Assembly: GCA_014803505.1 (NCBI GenBank)
Contig: JAAVBM010000107.1
Span: 1 to 64,000 of the forward strand
DNA from: a bacterium
Lineage (GTDB): Bacteria > Cyanobacteriota > Vampirovibrionia > Gastranaerophilales > Gastranaerophilaceae
Direction: 5' to 3'
DNA: 64,000 nt
A program made the translations under genes and the position numbers. The notes beneath the pieces are model-generated. The model did not search any database. It saw only the letters and a program-made list of their open reading frames with translations, and was not told the DNA's origin. Positions 33,631 through 46,429 of the stretch are shown here, piece by piece; position 1 is the first letter of the stretch, and every line of letters starts with the position of its first letter.

Positions 33631-34825
33631 GTGCTTCTACCCACTTTTTCAAATCATGATAGCCTTTTACACCCATCTCAAAATCTTTACCCATTTTAAG
33701 AGCCGGAGTTCCGATTTGTTTATGAGAAACTGCAAAATCAATATCTTTTTGGATAATTTTATTAACAGCATCACTATGAGCATCTTTTCTAAGTTTATCT
33801 ATATCAAGATCAAAACCTGAATTTTCAAGAACTTCGATAATTTCATCTTCTGTAGATGGGCGAAGTTCAAAGAATAAAGAATTCACTTCCCAGAATTTAC
33901 CTTGCATTTGAGCGGCTTCGGCATACTGAGCCATGATACAAGAACCTTGATGAAACTCTTGCTGCAAATACTTGTTACATTTAGTATCTAAAGGCATTGC
34001 GTGATGTTCAACCCTTACATTTTTGAATTCAGTAACAACTTTATGAATCATAACATTACAAGCCTTACACATTGGACATTTATAGTCTGAAAAAACTTGT
34101 AAAACAACAGCATCTTTGGCATCTGAGCCCAAAATATTACCTTGAACAGCATAAGGATTAGGACCTTCTTTAGTAAATTCGCCATATTCTCTACTAAATT
34201 TCAACGCAGGAGAGAATTTTGCACTTGTAAAAGTCCAACCTAAAAATCCAACTGCACAAATCATAACCACAACAAATGCTATTTTGTATGGTAGAGGTTT
34301 TAAAGCATCAAGAAAGTCTTTTGCACTTTGTTTTATCGCTCCGATAAAGCCGCCTTCGATACCTTTAACTGCAGTTAACCCAATTGCTAAATTCAATAAA
34401 TATGTAATCATACACATTACACAGATTTTATGAATTTCAAATAAGCTGACACACAACAATATCATAGATATTGCGAAAGATATCAAACCTAACGATGCGA
34501 TATAATGAAATTTGTTTTTAAATACTTCTAAGAATTTTAAAAATGGAACTTTCTTTAACTTATCAACACCAAGAAGCATTACAATAAATGAATACAAGAA
34601 TAAGCCCCAATAAGCTAAAGGTACACCTAAAAATTGTGATTCTGTAGTTCTTGCTACACCATCACAATCTACAAAATCGCTTATCGAACAAAAACTCGGT
34701 AATGCGTATTGGTTAAAATTTGCTTCATAATAAATATAAGCAAGGTCAATCGTAATAAGAACACCTAACAATACCAATATAGATATTATTATGTATTTTT
34801 TTAAATCATTGTTTACATTTTCCAT
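33599..34825 (-). CDS. VKOR - thioredoxin-like (DsbA-type) fusion
   Basis: This 408-residue membrane protein would re-oxidise or form disulfides in the envelope. Five hydrophobic spans form a vitamin K epoxide reductase domain. It has the loop FCSISDFVDCDGVA with its Cys pair, a Ser near STESQF-like TTESQFLGVP, and the active CVMC pair (~133-136). A C-terminal thioredoxin-fold domain (~215-400) contains CPMCKAC. VKOR-Trx fusions are well known in Cyanobacteria and other bacteria. The Pro in IGTPALKMG is the cis-Pro loop. Confidence 0.93.
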   Translation of the reverse strand: MENVNNDLKKYIIISILVLLGVLITIDLAYIYYEANFNQYALPSFCSISDFVDCDGVARTTESQFLGVPLAYWGLFLYSFIVMLLGVDKLKKVPFLKFLEVFKNKFHYIASLGLISFAISMILLCVSLFEIHKICVMCMITYLLNLAIGLTAVKGIEGGFIGAIKQSAKDFLDALKPLPYKIAFVVVMICAVGFLGWTFTSAKFSPALKFSREYGEFTKEGPNPYAVQGNILGSDAKDAVVLQVFSDYKCPMCKACNVMIHKVVTEFKNVRVEHHAMPLDTKCNKYLQQEFHQGSCIMAQYAEAAQMQGKFWEVNSLFFELRPSTEDEIIEVLENSGFDLDIDKLRKDAHSDAVNKIIQKDIDFAVSHKQIGTPALKMGKDFEMGVKGYHDLKKWVEAHGGKPKNKLF

Positions 34826-34983
34826 CTAAATATTTCTCCCTAATCTTTAAGTATATATTACATATTTTATCAAAATTAATCAACCGACTTAATATCAATT
34901 TATAAATATTGAACAAAAGACAAAACATCTTGAACTATTCGGCTTTTAATGATAAAATACAGAATGAAATAAGGTTTATAAAA

Positions 34984-35706
34984 GTGCAAAGAAATTTTTT
35001 AGAACAATTCCTGACCAAAATATCACAATTTCCACAATGGGTTAAAGAAATTATATACGTCAAATTATCAGAAGATATTAACAAAGATAGTGATTTGGCA
35101 TATGTTTTTGCAACTTACAAGCCTGTTTTAACATATAAAGGAAGATGTGAGCTTGATTATAAAAAATCAAATTTTGATTCAAATATCTATAATATGTTAA
35201 ATTATTGTGATCAAAATTCAAGTATATCTGAAATAACCTTAAACACTTATATGTCAATGGAAGAAATTGCTAACCATTTTTTATTTTGTGTGGATGAAGG
35301 TTACATGGAAATTCCTGATAATTCGCAAATATTAAATATTGCAGGATTCCTCGCAGGAAAATATCGTACTGGCGAATATTTTGTTCAAGACGGCTCTATT
35401 TCTGAAGAACAATTGAATTCTGCAGTCGATAATTACAATAATAATAAATCTGAAAACAAAAAGTTCGGACAAATACTTATAGACTTAGGATTGATTACTC
35501 AAAATCAATTGAATATAATTTTATCAATTAAAGAAGAAGCAAAAAAAAGATTCGTGCTCGATCATAATGAAATTCCAAAAATCAATCAAGAGTACGTAAA
35601 AACTTCTGATGAATACGAAAAACAAATTGAAGACTTAAAAGAAGAAAACAGACAATTAAAAAAGAAATTAGATCAGTTATTAGCGATGGTGAAAAATAAT
35701 GAATAA
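34984..35706 (+). CDS. MshEN-like domain protein, hypothetical
   Basis: Unassigned 240-residue protein. A C-terminal segment (FGQILIDLGLITQNQLNIIL) resembles the MshEN/GspE N-terminal fold that binds c-di-GMP in type II/IV pilus ATPases, but no ATPase domain follows. A charged coiled coil ends the protein. The start is uncertain: GTG 34984 is preferred with ATAAGG upstream; a TTG at 34909 gives 25 more residues but has no ribosome-binding site. The stop overlaps the asparaginase gene by 8 nt. Confidence 0.6.
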   Translation: MQRNFLEQFLTKISQFPQWVKEIIYVKLSEDINKDSDLAYVFATYKPVLTYKGRCELDYKKSNFDSNIYNMLNYCDQNSSISEITLNTYMSMEEIANHFLFCVDEGYMEIPDNSQILNIAGFLAGKYRTGEYFVQDGSISEEQLNSAVDNYNNNKSENKKFGQILIDLGLITQNQLNIILSIKEEAKKRFVLDHNEIPKINQEYVKTSDEYEKQIEDLKEENRQLKKKLDQLLAMVKNNE

Positions 35707-37725: not shown

Positions 37726-39948
37726 TTACTTTATATCAAAATATTCGTTCAAACCTTCAAGAACTTTAGCTTCAAATCTATTTCTAAAATCTGAAGACTG
37801 AAGCTTATGACTTTCTGAACCATTTAAAAACTCAACTTCCAACAATACAGAAGGAATATTTTGTGTTTGATTCAAAACAAGAAGTCCATTCTTACCTGGA
37901 ACTCTTTCTGATAACTTTGCATTAACCATTTGTTCTTCATTCAAACTATCCACTAAAAATTTAGCAAATGTTGTGTTGTCAATGCCGTTAGAATCATAAC
38001 ATACACTGGAACCTGATTTACCAGGCATAGAATCTGCATGTAATGAAATAAAGGCTATATCTTTCGTTGAATATTTAGTACCATTCTTATGACCGTTATT
38101 TAACCTTGAAACAAGATCCGTAAAAGTATTCTGATCACGCATTGTATTAGCATGTCCACCTGCAATTACAACAGTATAACCTTGTTTACGTAGTTTTGTT
38201 GAAAAATCATTTGCATATTCTTTCATTTTTTCATACTCAAAGAAAGGAACATATTTTCCATCTTTTCTTTTAACAAAAGTATATACACCAGGATCAAAAA
38301 ATCCGCTGCTGGAACTATACGAACCATGACCAGGATTTAATATTATAACTTTACCATTAGATTTAGTTAAAGGAGGCAGAGCTTTGGACTCTATAGTCGT
38401 AATCGTTGCGCCTTTTACTGTAGGCTCTGGGAAATTATCAATCGGTGACAAATCCAGATTTTTTTCATTATATGGAATTTTATTATCTCTACAAAATTCT
38501 TTGAATTTTTTAGAAATATCAGTTTTAGCTCCGCTTATAGTACCTCTATATAACTCAGCAACAGTCATTGTTTTATTATTGCCAGTAAATGTAACTTTAG
38601 TATTAGGATCAGCTTTTGGATTTTCATACGTAATATTAGTATTAACTTTAACATTACTTCTGATATTTCCAGATATAATATTATCTAAAACTTGATCTAA
38701 ATTTTCAGTATTAACCATACCAATAAGTTTATTAAATTCTTTGTCTAATTCTTGCTTAAACTCGCTACGAACTTTTGGATTATCTATGTTATGTTGTTTG
38801 GCAAGATTATCGTAGATATGCATAACAGCAGCTTTTCTGACATCTTTTTTGCTGCCGACTTCACTTGTTATAGCATTTAACAAAGATTCTTTTGGGCTTA
38901 TTTTTTTATACGATTTAATAACTTCAGCTGCGTTTTTCGAATTTATTAAAAGTAATAATTCGTCAAAATCATGCTTACCAACTGCAGAAGACTGTTTATC
39001 AACAACATTTCTAATATCTTTTGCAATTTCCATAGGAGAAGCATTCATTCTTCTTAATGTAGTATCTAATCTTTTTGTATTAACCATACCCATAGAATTG
39101 AATTGATCATTCAATTCTTTTTCAAACTTCTTACGAATTTCAGGAGAAGTACCTTTTCGTGCCGCCATTGCATCATATATATGCATAACAGCAGCTTTTC
39201 TGGAATCCTTTTTACTGCCGACTTCACTTGTTATGGCATCCAAAAGAGTTTCTCCCGTTTTTAAAGCCTTATAAGCCTCAATAACTTCCACAACATTCTT
39301 CGGATTAATTTCATTTAAATAGTTATCAAATACAGGTTTACCAACAGCTCCACTATTATTATCAACTGCATCTTTTATCTGCTGTGCAATTTCTTGAGGT
39401 GTAAACGATGATCCCCAAGTCTTTTTATTAGCTATAGTAGGATTACTTGTAGGAGTAGAAGTAATTTCTTTTTCAACCTTAGAAGAATCTGATTTTTGTT
39501 TTGTATCAACAGTATCAGTCTTAGTTGAAGATGATTGTTCGGTTTTTACAGAATCTTGCTTCTGCGTTGTTCCAGAAGAACTTTTTGTTGTAGAAACTTG
39601 TTTAACATAGAATTTTTCATTCACATCCGGCTTATAGTTATTATATGGTTTTGGAATACTATTTAAATTACAAAATTCGTCCAAAGTCATACCATACTTT
39701 TTTGCAAGTGCCAAAAGCCCTTTGCCTTTTGGAATTACGTCGGTCGGTAAAGTGATTTTTTGTCCGGTCTTTAAAGTTCCGCTTTTGAGACCTGACCATT
39801 CTTTAAATTCATCAACAGACATCCCAAAATTCTTTGCAATTTTAGCAATAGTATCATTTGGCTTTACTTGATATACTTCTGGTCTTTGATTATTAATTTT
39901 ATTAGTAGAAGCAGCTTGACTACCTACTTTATTTACAGGGCCGGACAT
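37726..39948 (-). CDS. LysM - tandem-repeat - N-acetylmuramoyl-L-alanine amidase
   Basis: A 740-residue wall hydrolase: LysM at ~25-68 and ~72-118, a Ser/Thr/Lys linker, then two ~120-residue repeats (183-303 and 304-426) sharing SEVGSKKD.RKAAVMHIYD. A zinc amidase domain (~535-740) follows, with NPGHGSYSS, FEYEK and ISLHADS metal-binding motifs and an EVEFL near the end. Amidase_3 cuts the amide between MurNAc and L-Ala. No signal peptide is seen, unusual for a wall enzyme. It is the first gene of an operon with the lysozyme. Confidence 0.9.
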   Translation of the reverse strand: MSGPVNKVGSQAASTNKINNQRPEVYQVKPNDTIAKIAKNFGMSVDEFKEWSGLKSGTLKTGQKITLPTDVIPKGKGLLALAKKYGMTLDEFCNLNSIPKPYNNYKPDVNEKFYVKQVSTTKSSSGTTQKQDSVKTEQSSSTKTDTVDTKQKSDSSKVEKEITSTPTSNPTIANKKTWGSSFTPQEIAQQIKDAVDNNSGAVGKPVFDNYLNEINPKNVVEVIEAYKALKTGETLLDAITSEVGSKKDSRKAAVMHIYDAMAARKGTSPEIRKKFEKELNDQFNSMGMVNTKRLDTTLRRMNASPMEIAKDIRNVVDKQSSAVGKHDFDELLLLINSKNAAEVIKSYKKISPKESLLNAITSEVGSKKDVRKAAVMHIYDNLAKQHNIDNPKVRSEFKQELDKEFNKLIGMVNTENLDQVLDNIISGNIRSNVKVNTNITYENPKADPNTKVTFTGNNKTMTVAELYRGTISGAKTDISKKFKEFCRDNKIPYNEKNLDLSPIDNFPEPTVKGATITTIESKALPPLTKSNGKVIILNPGHGSYSSSSGFFDPGVYTFVKRKDGKYVPFFEYEKMKEYANDFSTKLRKQGYTVVIAGGHANTMRDQNTFTDLVSRLNNGHKNGTKYSTKDIAFISLHADSMPGKSGSSVCYDSNGIDNTTFAKFLVDSLNEEQMVNAKLSERVPGKNGLLVLNQTQNIPSVLLEVEFLNGSESHKLQSSDFRNRFEAKVLEGLNEYFDIK

Positions 39949-43248: not shown

Positions 43249-43276
43249 TCAGTAAAATAAATTATATATATTTCTA

Positions 43277-43312
43277 AAATGCTCGATTTCTATATGAAAA
43301 TCGAGCATTTTT
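43277..43312 (+). terminator. Terminator of the rubrerythrin gene
   Basis: An AAATGCTCGATTT / AAATCGAGCATTT stem is followed by TTCT and a T tract, about 30 nt past the stop codon. Confidence 0.8.
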
Positions 43313-43372
43313 CTATATGAGTCAACCATATATATGATGTCGATTTCTATATTTTCATGATATTTTTATAAT

Positions 43373-44038
43373 ATGAGCAATACATTGAAAATTATACTAT
43401 TTGGAATATTTGCACTATGTTTTATATGTGCAGCAATCTTCGGATTATCAAAAATTAAAGTTGATGAATTTCATAAAGCATCCATCATAATGATTGTGGA
43501 TTCTTCCGCTTCAAATCAAAAAACTCTTCCTGCCCAAAAAAGAGCTATTCAACAATTATGCTCAATGCTTGATCCGGAAGATAATATCAAAATACTTAGA
43601 GTTTCAGAAGATTCATACATCATCTACGAAGGATCTCCTCAAGCAGGCTCTAAAATAAGAAAATCAATGGAAGAATATACCAAATTTAGTGCAAAAGAAT
43701 ACGGTACAGCTTATGGTTTATCATTAAAAAAAGCTTTTAATCACTCATTAACAATGAAAACTGAAGGCTATATACCTGCAGTTGTTGTTCTTGGAGACTT
43801 GGAAAACGAAGGTGATATTAGCAAGCAAATCAATTGGGAAACTTTACCTGATGATGTTGCTCAAATCAAAAACGAAATAGGAGATTTCACTATGATGTTC
43901 CTATTCGCTGCACCTGATAAATTGGATATGGTTAAAGAAAAATTATCGCCTGTACTTGGTGAAAATCACTTAATTATTGGAACCGAAATTACTGCTGATA
44001 AAGCATTAAGAAGATTCCTATCTGCTATTGGAAGATAA
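43373..44038 (+). CDS. Membrane-anchored VWA-like protein
   Basis: The 221-residue protein has an N-terminal transmembrane helix (~6-26) and then a von Willebrand A-like fold. The MIDAS-like metal motif DSSAS (~43-47), in IIMIVDSSASNQKTL, and an AVVVLGDLENE strand near 140 support it. VWA domains bind protein partners through a divalent cation. It is the first gene of a three-gene run with an FHA-like membrane protein and a TonB-C-like protein, 23 and 1 nt apart. It has no clear ribosome-binding site. Confidence 0.7.
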   Translation: MSNTLKIILFGIFALCFICAAIFGLSKIKVDEFHKASIIMIVDSSASNQKTLPAQKRAIQQLCSMLDPEDNIKILRVSEDSYIIYEGSPQAGSKIRKSMEEYTKFSAKEYGTAYGLSLKKAFNHSLTMKTEGYIPAVVVLGDLENEGDISKQINWETLPDDVAQIKNEIGDFTMMFLFAAPDKLDMVKEKLSPVLGENHLIIGTEITADKALRRFLSAIGR

Positions 44039-44061
44039 TATAAATATGAGGAAGTAATTAT

Positions 44062-45639
44062 ATGAAAATTACTATTAAGTACTTAGATAAAGTGCAAAAT
44101 TTTGAAAACAAACAAACTATTACTATTGGTAAGATCAATTGTGATTTTTGTATAGATGATCTTCCGGAAAATACACTTATTAAAATGGTTTATTCTGATA
44201 AATATAAAAACTATGTCCTTGTCAATTCTACAAATAACAATGATATTTTATTGAACAATAAACCATTCTCAAAAATTTTAGTTCCAAGTAATTTTGCATT
44301 AAACATGAAAGACTTGCATGACTCAATATCAATTACTTCCGTAACTGCAGTTACCGCAAGTAAAACATCACCTCAGCAAGTTCAAACATCTGTAAATACG
44401 CAAAATAATACATTACAAACAACAAATCAAGATGATCTTTTCAACAATGATATTGAAACTAACAGAGTTGCTATCATTAAAGAAATAGGATATAAAATTA
44501 CAGAATTGAAAAATAATATTCGTTCTATGAATATTACATCACTAATCCTGCATGCTGCAATGTTTGTTTTATCAATAGTTTGCGCATTTGGTATGACAAA
44601 TTTCCTATTAGGATTAAAAATTGATAATTCTCAATCTGTATTAAATCTCACAACAAATGCAGGATTCCTTGTAGGACTCTCTATAATTGTACTTGCAATA
44701 GCAATAATTCTAAAATTAGGGGTTTATTCTCTTATGGAATTTAAACAATCAAAGAAATACGGAGATACTGATTTTATCCAAAAATCTATGATAGGTATTT
44801 CTATGATATCTATGTTTATTTTCTACATAATAAATCTATTTTATTACAAAGATGTTCCGGGCTTTGCCGCAGCAGCATTTTTCATAGCACTTTTATTTGT
44901 TGGTGCTTTAACAATTGTATCTGTTGCAAGCGGATATTTTCAATTTCAAATAAAAACATACAATAGCCAACTAACAAATTGCGAATATAGAGAAGATTTT
45001 GAATCAGTAATGAAAAGTTACAGAGGATTAATCAATACTTTTGTAAATAAATTAAGCCAAAATCGTATAAATACAATAAAAGGAAACTTATTAAATAATC
45101 AATTAAAAATGATTGTTGAAATGTTCATTGGATTGTTAACTGCACCATTTTTGGCATACGGTGTTTCTAATACTCTTGCAAGCTGCTTCCCAGAAGCTGC
45201 AAACTGGGTACGCATTTCAGGATTAAGATTCAGTCCTATATTCCTTGTTCTTGCATCATTTTTGATTATATTTGCATTTTTCTCTTTCGTAAGAGCATTT
45301 ACAATTTCAAAGCAAATCAAAGGTTCTGAAATCATAAAATTTGACGGCTTTCATGACTACAACAATCATGGTGTAACAGTTTTAGGCTTAGATTCAATGC
45401 GCAGCCTCAATAAAGAAAAAAATATAGTTATGTTTATTGCATGTTTTATTATATTGATTGAATTTACAATGAACGTTTCATACTTCATAACAGAAATTGG
45501 TGGAGATCTTCAAGGTATGTTTTTGAGTTTCGTGACTGCATTGGTGCCAACAGCTTTATTGATTGCTGAAACTCATTTATTAAGCTCTACTATGTATAAA
45601 ATTAATAATTACAATGAACTATTAGCAATGTTGGATTAA
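44062..45639 (+). CDS. FHA-like - polytopic membrane protein
   Basis: A 525-residue protein with an N-terminal beta-rich segment of ~95 residues. QTITIGKINCDFCIDDLPE there resembles the start of a forkhead-associated (phospho-Thr-binding) domain, but I give this low certainty. A linker with many Gln/Thr residues follows. Then come about seven hydrophobic helices (from ~165 on) with large loops. GAGG lies upstream of the ATG. The neighbours are the VWA-like gene upstream and the TonB-C-like gene 1 nt downstream. I know no such named family. Confidence 0.65.
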   Translation: MKITIKYLDKVQNFENKQTITIGKINCDFCIDDLPENTLIKMVYSDKYKNYVLVNSTNNNDILLNNKPFSKILVPSNFALNMKDLHDSISITSVTAVTASKTSPQQVQTSVNTQNNTLQTTNQDDLFNNDIETNRVAIIKEIGYKITELKNNIRSMNITSLILHAAMFVLSIVCAFGMTNFLLGLKIDNSQSVLNLTTNAGFLVGLSIIVLAIAIILKLGVYSLMEFKQSKKYGDTDFIQKSMIGISMISMFIFYIINLFYYKDVPGFAAAAFFIALLFVGALTIVSVASGYFQFQIKTYNSQLTNCEYREDFESVMKSYRGLINTFVNKLSQNRINTIKGNLLNNQLKMIVEMFIGLLTAPFLAYGVSNTLASCFPEAANWVRISGLRFSPIFLVLASFLIIFAFFSFVRAFTISKQIKGSEIIKFDGFHDYNNHGVTVLGLDSMRSLNKEKNIVMFIACFIILIEFTMNVSYFITEIGGDLQGMFLSFVTALVPTALLIAETHLLSSTMYKINNYNELLAMLD

Positions 45640-45640
45640 T

Positions 45641-46429
45641 ATGAAAAACATATACTTCACAATCGGAATATTAGTTTTTGTACTTACAACAATTTTTGTA
45701 ATGGCTTCAGATACTCATGGAATTAAAAAAGTTCAGTTCACCAATCAAAATTTTATTGTAAGCCATGAAAACACTGACATTAAAACTGAGAATGTGAATG
45801 TTAATTTCAACAAATCCAATATTCAAAATAAAGAATTACAAACAGATAATCAAAATTTAAATATTAAAAACAATGATACTGAATTGAATTATGAACCATT
45901 CCATAGTCAGGAAAATAATTTCAGTAACAATTCGTCATTTGACAACCAAGAAAACAAGTATAATGACAAACTTACAAATTACAAAAATCAACAAGACAAA
46001 TTAAGAAAAGCAAAAAATCAACTATCCACACAAAAAACTCAACCAAAAACAAATAATAGATATCTAGTAAGGAATATAGACTGGAGTGTATGGAAAAGTG
46101 ATTTTATAAATAAAATTACCGATGATAGCGAACAAATACATTCTTTAGACGATTATGGACTAGGAACTTGGTTCTATTATTCATTTACTGTAACTAATAC
46201 AGGGGAAATAAAAAATATCACAATCCGCTCAATGTATCTTGAGCCACAAGATAGAGTAGCTATTGAAAAACTGATAAAAAGTTACGAATACCAAGATATA
46301 ACAGTATTTCCTGCAAATTCAAAAAGAGCAACAGCAAAAATTGAAGCTGTAATGGTAATCGGTTCTGAAGAAAAAAGAGCAAAACCATCCGATTTTAACG
46401 ATAAAGAACAAATAAGAATAAAATTATAA
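45641..46429 (+). CDS. TonB C-terminal-like envelope protein
   Basis: A 262-residue protein with an N-terminal hydrophobic segment (~4-25). A long Asn/Gln/Lys-rich, disordered linker (~45-140) follows. The C-terminal ~110 residues resemble the TonB-C fold: YSFTVTNTGEIKNITIRSMY, then DRVAIEKLIKSYEYQDITVFP. TonB-C domains pass energy to outer-membrane receptors in cooperation with ExbB-ExbD, which are not here. It ends a three-gene operon, with only one base between it and the membrane protein. It may contact peptidoglycan or an outer-membrane partner. Confidence 0.7.
   Translation: MKNIYFTIGILVFVLTTIFVMASDTHGIKKVQFTNQNFIVSHENTDIKTENVNVNFNKSNIQNKELQTDNQNLNIKNNDTELNYEPFHSQENNFSNNSSFDNQENKYNDKLTNYKNQQDKLRKAKNQLSTQKTQPKTNNRYLVRNIDWSVWKSDFINKITDDSEQIHSLDDYGLGTWFYYSFTVTNTGEIKNITIRSMYLEPQDRVAIEKLIKSYEYQDITVFPANSKRATAKIEAVMVIGSEEKRAKPSDFNDKEQIRIKL

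Follow-up and report, generated by a model that had tools for sequence, protein, structure and literature searches.

TonB/Tol-like arms are thought to need a motor of the ExbB/TolQ type, with specific receptors in addition for Ton systems. GltJ, of the Glt machinery of Myxococcus, carries a zinc ribbon. Both GltG and GltJ are TolA/TonB-like (PMC5349195), and GltG of Myxococcus xanthus combines a cytosolic FHA domain, a transmembrane segment and a TonB_C domain and interacts with AglR, which is TolQ-like (PMC3169522). CglB is a VWA surface adhesin at the outer end of the Agl-Glt gliding machinery (PMC13104615), and VWA proteins of the inner membrane have been proposed to act as force transducers or as TolR substitutes (PMC12204202).

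We analyzed a stretch of 64,000 nucleotides (the window), in which three plus-strand open reading frames at 43373-46429 encode proteins of 221, 525 and 262 amino acids, separated by gaps of 23 and 1 nt. These are the same three frames, with the same coordinates and spacing, that an earlier note on this DNA had described. The closest parts list is that of the Myxococcus Glt machinery, alongside the TonB/Tol systems. The earlier note had given no named system for this set of proteins, and we likewise found none that matches; a search of the literature for a paper on a VWA-FHA-TonB cluster returned none. The trio was not filed as a member of the Glt machinery or of the VWA transducers, because defining traits of each are lacking here despite the common logic. 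We propose that the trio forms the core of a trans-envelope coupling module, as yet unnamed, in gut bacteria of the Gastranaerophilaceae type, a reading that, taken in full, we give an even chance of being right.

The trio is conserved in abundant, mostly uncultured gut bacteria, non-photosynthetic relatives of the Cyanobacteria, in which the arm is kept while receptors and a linked motor are absent. It puts an FHA domain to use where phospho-signaling is nearly absent and, as a delimited set of genes, allows one to ask how Gastranaerophilaceae-type bacteria join their two membranes.

The three genes likely form an operon

A hairpin followed by a T-run (AAAATGCTCGATTT..AAATCGAGCATTTTT, about 43276..43316, plus strand) lies in the interval between the rubrerythrin gene and the trio, with an RNAfold energy of -16.5 kcal/mol for 43269-43330. 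This hairpin is likely the terminator of rubrerythrin, the gene upstream of the trio, and it is absent from the list produced by a consensus terminator scan. A good Shine-Dalgarno sequence (GAGGAAG) was found 5′ of the gene 2 ATG, and a convergent open reading frame lies downstream of gene 3. Judged from these flanking sequence features, the hairpin and T-run before gene 1 and the convergent frame past gene 3, a three-gene operon is likely. PADLOC returned no defense-system match. Elsewhere in the window, a minus-strand open reading frame of 740 amino acids (37726-39948) has, by eye, a LysM-like N terminus and an amidase-like C terminus.

Gene 1 encodes a membrane-anchored VWA protein

Gene 1 (43373..44038, plus strand; 221 amino acids) has one hydrophobic segment at its N terminus, followed by a VWA domain. 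By itself, gene 1 matched Pfam VWA_2 with an E-value of 6.5e-5, which is under the Pfam cut-off, and 28 of 30 relatives matched the same profile (best, 1.6e-8). The MIDAS is complete (D43-x-S45-x-S47...T112...D142), and each of its residues is 95-98% conserved among 121 sequences. The VWA assignment, which had first been made from a DSSAS motif, is upheld by the VWA_2 profile and by MIDAS conservation, that is, on a profile basis rather than from a structure. A PDB sequence search gave no match for either gene 1 or gene 2.

The N-terminal flank of the gene 1 anchor was the more positive one in 116 of 120 homologues, and this charge bias predicts that the VWA domain is periplasmic. With a single N-terminal membrane helix and a VWA domain, tied to an envelope system, gene 1 resembles the tethered vWA force transducers (PMC12204202). 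Those proteins are marked by an SHLS motif or by a transpore Asp and have TolQ as a neighbor. In contrast, the membrane helix of gene 1 is free of acidic residues (positions 5-25; Asp or Glu in 0% of 121 VWA proteins), there is no TolQ, and the locus encodes a TonB-like protein as a separate product.

The anchored VWA gene was missing at four loci (L047, L049, L119 and L140, the latter two in the set of named genomes), so it is not strictly required. At L047 (3172-6939), four tandem secreted-VWA genes are divergent to the cluster without an anchored VWA gene, and the other three loci have one or two secreted-VWA genes each.

Gene 2 joins a noncanonical FHA domain to a polytopic membrane domain

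Gene 2 (44062..45639, plus strand) encodes 525 amino acids. In its AlphaFold model (mean pLDDT, 81.6), residues 1-98 (44062..44355, plus strand) have an FHA fold and are followed by about 8 membrane helices. Foldseek ranks 1-13 were all FHA-domain chains with a probability of 1.00, yet with E-values only from 5e-3 upward. VIA-align aligned 92 residues with FHA-1 of Rv1747 (6ccd) at Z 11.0 and an rmsd of 2.4; the VIA-align list for gene 2 was filled by the FHA domain and covers that domain only. Thus, an FHA assignment that the earlier note had marked as weak is upheld by AlphaFold, Foldseek and VIA-align. Neither gene 2 nor gene 3 fell into an accepted family when the individual proteins were searched against Pfam and NCBIfam. 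One relative matched Pfam Yop-YscD_cpl weakly (E 0.019), and weak matches to Arif-1, Tetraspanin, DUF2207_C and Presenilin were put down to membrane composition or low complexity.

The canonical phosphothreonine residues are missing from this domain. Across the 121-sequence alignment of the gene 2 family, Arg was never present at the GR position (0/121), and S-x-x-H was missing. In contrast, two FHA domains encoded on another contig (C76) of the window's genome keep both GR and S-x-x-H. A 3441-codon open frame bears these two canonical FHA domains (L214 and L226; G000:C76, about 33700-35260). The earlier note had suggested a search of nearby genomes for linked Ser/Thr kinases or phosphatases; Pkinase was found in only 2 of 46 genomes of the window's genus. 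The window genome's one Pkinase match is likely a contaminant, because the contig that bears it has a GC content of 48%, versus 32% for the window. By eye, that contig (L225; G000:C13:4000-11149) carries Bacteroidota-like genes.

If the trio were a phosphothreonine signaling complex, its FHA domain would read a Ser/Thr kinase signal and control the envelope proteins. The FHA fold itself is what such a complex would need, but the residues for binding phosphothreonine, which the earlier note had given as the role of FHA domains, are absent from all relatives examined although they are retained in the other FHA domains encoded by the window's genome, and Ser/Thr kinases are nearly absent from the genus. 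A signaling complex is already largely refuted by these data, and we consider it extremely improbable. As part of a coupling module, the FHA domain of gene 2 would instead be a cytosolic structural docking domain. EssC and YscD similarly have a degenerate FHA-type domain at the end of the membrane system that faces the cytosol; the FHA domain of EssC (5fwh) was matched at Z 9.4. Unlike those secretion systems, the trio has no linked ATPase or secretin-type partner.

In the membrane domain of gene 2, E353, E467 and N471 were each present in 121 of 121 sequences and E503 in 120 of 121, while position 218 was Lys in 119 and Arg in 2 of 121. All five residues sit within or bordering hydrophobic helices. 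Their near invariance is consistent with a gene 2 product that conducts ions via intramembrane Lys, Glu and Asn residues and drives the TonB-like arm, with the VWA protein in the role of ExbD/TolR; there is published precedent for a VWA protein replacing TolR (PMC12204202). However, gene 2 has no similarity to ExbB; an APFL/APFLGL likeness seen by eye was rejected as a sign of ExbB homology after hhalign gave Prob 0.1 and E 0.41 over 9 columns. In addition, the VWA membrane helix has no acidic residue, unlike those of the published TolR-replacing VWA proteins. We regard a new ion-driven inner-membrane energizer of this kind as unlikely. Quite unlikely, in our judgment, is the form of this idea in which gene 2 would be a previously undescribed energizer, unrelated to ExbB, TolQ or MotA, that is partnered by the MIDAS VWA protein and powers TonB-like arms to act on an outer-membrane component that is VirB10-like.

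The invariant charged residues buried in gene 2 would also suit a transporter, in which regulatory VWA, FHA and TonB-like subunits attend the polytopic domain and envelope coupling plays no part. Foldseek did pair the polytopic domain with the membrane domains of ABC exporters and of MATE, but this weak likeness is one of long helices, with TM-scores of 0.2 or less that are not significant, and the matches were rejected. Moreover, the two TonB-like arms and the VirB10-like protein of the longer gene cluster (described below) better suit an outer-membrane role. A transporter thus seems very unlikely.

Gene 3 carries a TonB/TolA-type C-terminal domain

Gene 3 (45641..46429, plus strand; 262 amino acids) has one N-terminal hydrophobic segment and an Asn-rich linker that was modeled as disordered (pLDDT < 50, residues 32-115). 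AlphaFold gave the C-terminal domain (residues about 141-247; 46061..46381, plus strand) a TonB/TolA fold with a pLDDT of > 90. Foldseek ranks 1-7 were all TonB-family C-terminal domains, and VIA-align matched the TolA and TonB C-terminal domains at Z 5.5-6.4. These results agree with the TonB-C call made earlier for gene 3. A gene 3 profile searched against the PDB matched TonB chains exclusively, with weak matches, and its match to the profile of the zinc-ribbon TonBs had an E-value of 7e-4 with a probability of just 27%. Charges flanking the anchor favored a periplasmic C-terminal domain 77 times and the opposite orientation 7 times, a bias that suggests that the TonB-like domain is periplasmic.

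An anchored arm, a flexible linker, a TonB/TolA C-terminal fold and a multi-helix membrane protein alongside are all found in the ExbB-ExbD-TonB and TolQ-TolR-TolA systems. Unlike those systems, the trio has no ExbB similarity in gene 2, no ExbD/TolR in the locus and no S-x3-H, and its genus has no TonB-dependent receptors. The S-x3-H motif (SHLS type, ExbB docking) was found in none of 122 anchors of gene 3 homologues and in 4 of 119 zinc-ribbon TonBs, versus 8 of 8 canonical TonBs adjoining ExbB, as read off the listed segments. TonB-dependent receptors, searched by their Plug domain, were found in 0 of 25 genomes of the genus, with controls working. Contact of gene 3 with such receptors, one form of the outer-membrane contact ascribed to TonB-C domains by the earlier note, is therefore unlikely.

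ExbB is present in the genus. The ExbB profile had no match on the window's contig (C107); the genome's ExbB is on contig C77, in an ExbB-ExbD-ExbD-TonB operon with VirB10-like neighbors. This operon (L216:3622-7936; G000:C77:11621-15935) encodes two periplasmic proteins, one of them ComB10/VirB10-like, as well as TonB, ExbB and two ExbD proteins. Given these VirB10-like neighbors, the pairing of a TonB-like with a VirB10-like protein is a recurrent arrangement here. A standalone VirB10-like relative matched NCBIfam ComB10 at 3.1e-5, far under the cut-off.

With ExbB, two ExbD proteins and a canonical TonB beside VirB10-like neighbors on C77, the TonB-like proteins could be accessories powered by the genome's own ExbB/ExbD complex. 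That the canonical TonBs keep S-x3-H while gene 3 and its relatives lack it argues against this, as do the separate locations of the trio and the ExbB operons and the missing receptors; we find the accessory role distinctly improbable. The absent docking motif and the unlinked ExbB/ExbD genes would, on the other hand, fit a gene 2 product that itself supplies an ion-driven force.

The trio is conserved and also occurs within a five-gene form

Named genomes provided 80 loci, at 77 of which the VWA, FHA and TonB genes were consecutive; because order and linkage are kept to this extent, the trio is not a chance cluster. Of the other three loci, one is truncated by a contig edge and two are without the anchored VWA gene. 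Conserved linkage had been put forward in the earlier note as a check on its reading, and relatives with unlinked genes, or proteins without the VWA, FHA or TonB-C folds, as what would overturn it. The genes are linked in relatives and all three folds were found, that of gene 1 by profile.

Many members of the genus have a second copy, 38-47% identical, while the window's genome has a single copy. At the loci of this second copy, as well as in other genera, the order is VirB10/TrbI-like, VWA, FHA-polytopic, TonB-like and second TonB. Scored by the second TonB, this five-gene form was present at 38 of the 80 named-genome loci. Its upstream protein has a signal peptide, a putative similarity to VirB10/TrbI and, in about half or more of cases, a glycine zipper; Pfam TrbI was matched by only 4 of 17 members (best, 7.6e-6). 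The second TonB, gene 5, matched Pfam TonB_2 in 19 of 20 members, and C4, C7, C18 and C20 are invariant in its N terminus, a zinc-ribbon-like Cys4 arrangement. The charges flanking gene 5 are ambiguous and do not favor the expected orientation. A secreted VWA neighbor was rejected as a general sixth part, since it adjoined 8 of 17 clusters with the VirB10-like gene in a first set but just 2 of the 38 five-gene loci from named genomes.

In the tree, the three-gene form groups as a single clade with good support, and it was probably derived from a five-gene ancestor through duplication and loss. A zinc-ribbon TonB was not found in the window's genome, and VirB10-like relatives are present elsewhere in it. 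Since the locus in the window is without both extra genes, the trio must either work alone or rely on gene products encoded elsewhere.

The five-gene form resembles Agl-Glt in having an FHA domain, two TonB-like proteins and a VWA protein, and in the Cys4 ribbon-like N terminus of the second TonB. It differs in that the FHA domain is part of a polytopic protein whose gene is separate from the TonB-like gene at all loci seen, in that the VWA protein is predicted to be anchored in the inner membrane, and in that no AglRQS-type motor genes are linked. The likeness is drawn at the level of the parts list and carries no motility claim.

The earlier suggestion that the proteins form one trans-envelope machine can reasonably be drawn from the linkage, from the anchor topology and from the VirB10-like and second TonB genes of the longer form. 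A physical complex, its topology (from charge), the identity of its partners and any energy coupling are inferences. The loci that have no anchored VWA gene, the lack of both extra genes in the window and the flank charges of gene 5 speak against this reading. In the proposed coupling module, the polytopic FHA protein (gene 2) would serve as the inner-membrane hub, and the VWA domain of gene 1 would offer a metal-dependent (MIDAS) ligand-binding face to the periplasm. Gene 3 would be an arm on a flexible Asn-rich linker, and its C-terminal domain may hold a partner on the outer-membrane side by strand addition, in the manner of TonB and TolA. In the longer form, the VirB10/TrbI-like glycine-zipper protein and the second, zinc-ribbon TonB may complete the bridge. 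The module as a whole would tether or move an outer-membrane or surface component.

Distribution of the FHA protein family

Samples at the genus, family, order and class levels were covered. All 46 genomes sampled from the window's genus had the FHA protein family, as did 10 of 13 further genomes of the Gastranaerophilaceae. Outside this family but within its order, 1 of 22 genomes had it, with a second match being doubtful. In the order sample, it was found in 194 of 286 genomes. In the class sample, FHA-family matches were confined to the family among the matches listed. Absences are approximate because most of the genomes are metagenome assembled. Most of the named genomes with the FHA family belong to Candidatus Gastranaerophilales or come from uncultured gut bacteria, and Zag_111 is among them; this search relied on conserved peptides of the FHA family, which distant relatives elsewhere could escape. 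A genome that is 66% complete and belongs to a different family of the order has the full five-gene cluster (L057; G074:C152), through horizontal transfer or misbinning. A lone FHA gene of about 100 codons is all that some genomes of one genus retain. In a genus of the family other than the window's, a standalone gene of 99 amino acids (L227:6798-7097 and L228:6539-6838) encodes the same FHA domain without the membrane part and adjoins a TolC-like gene.
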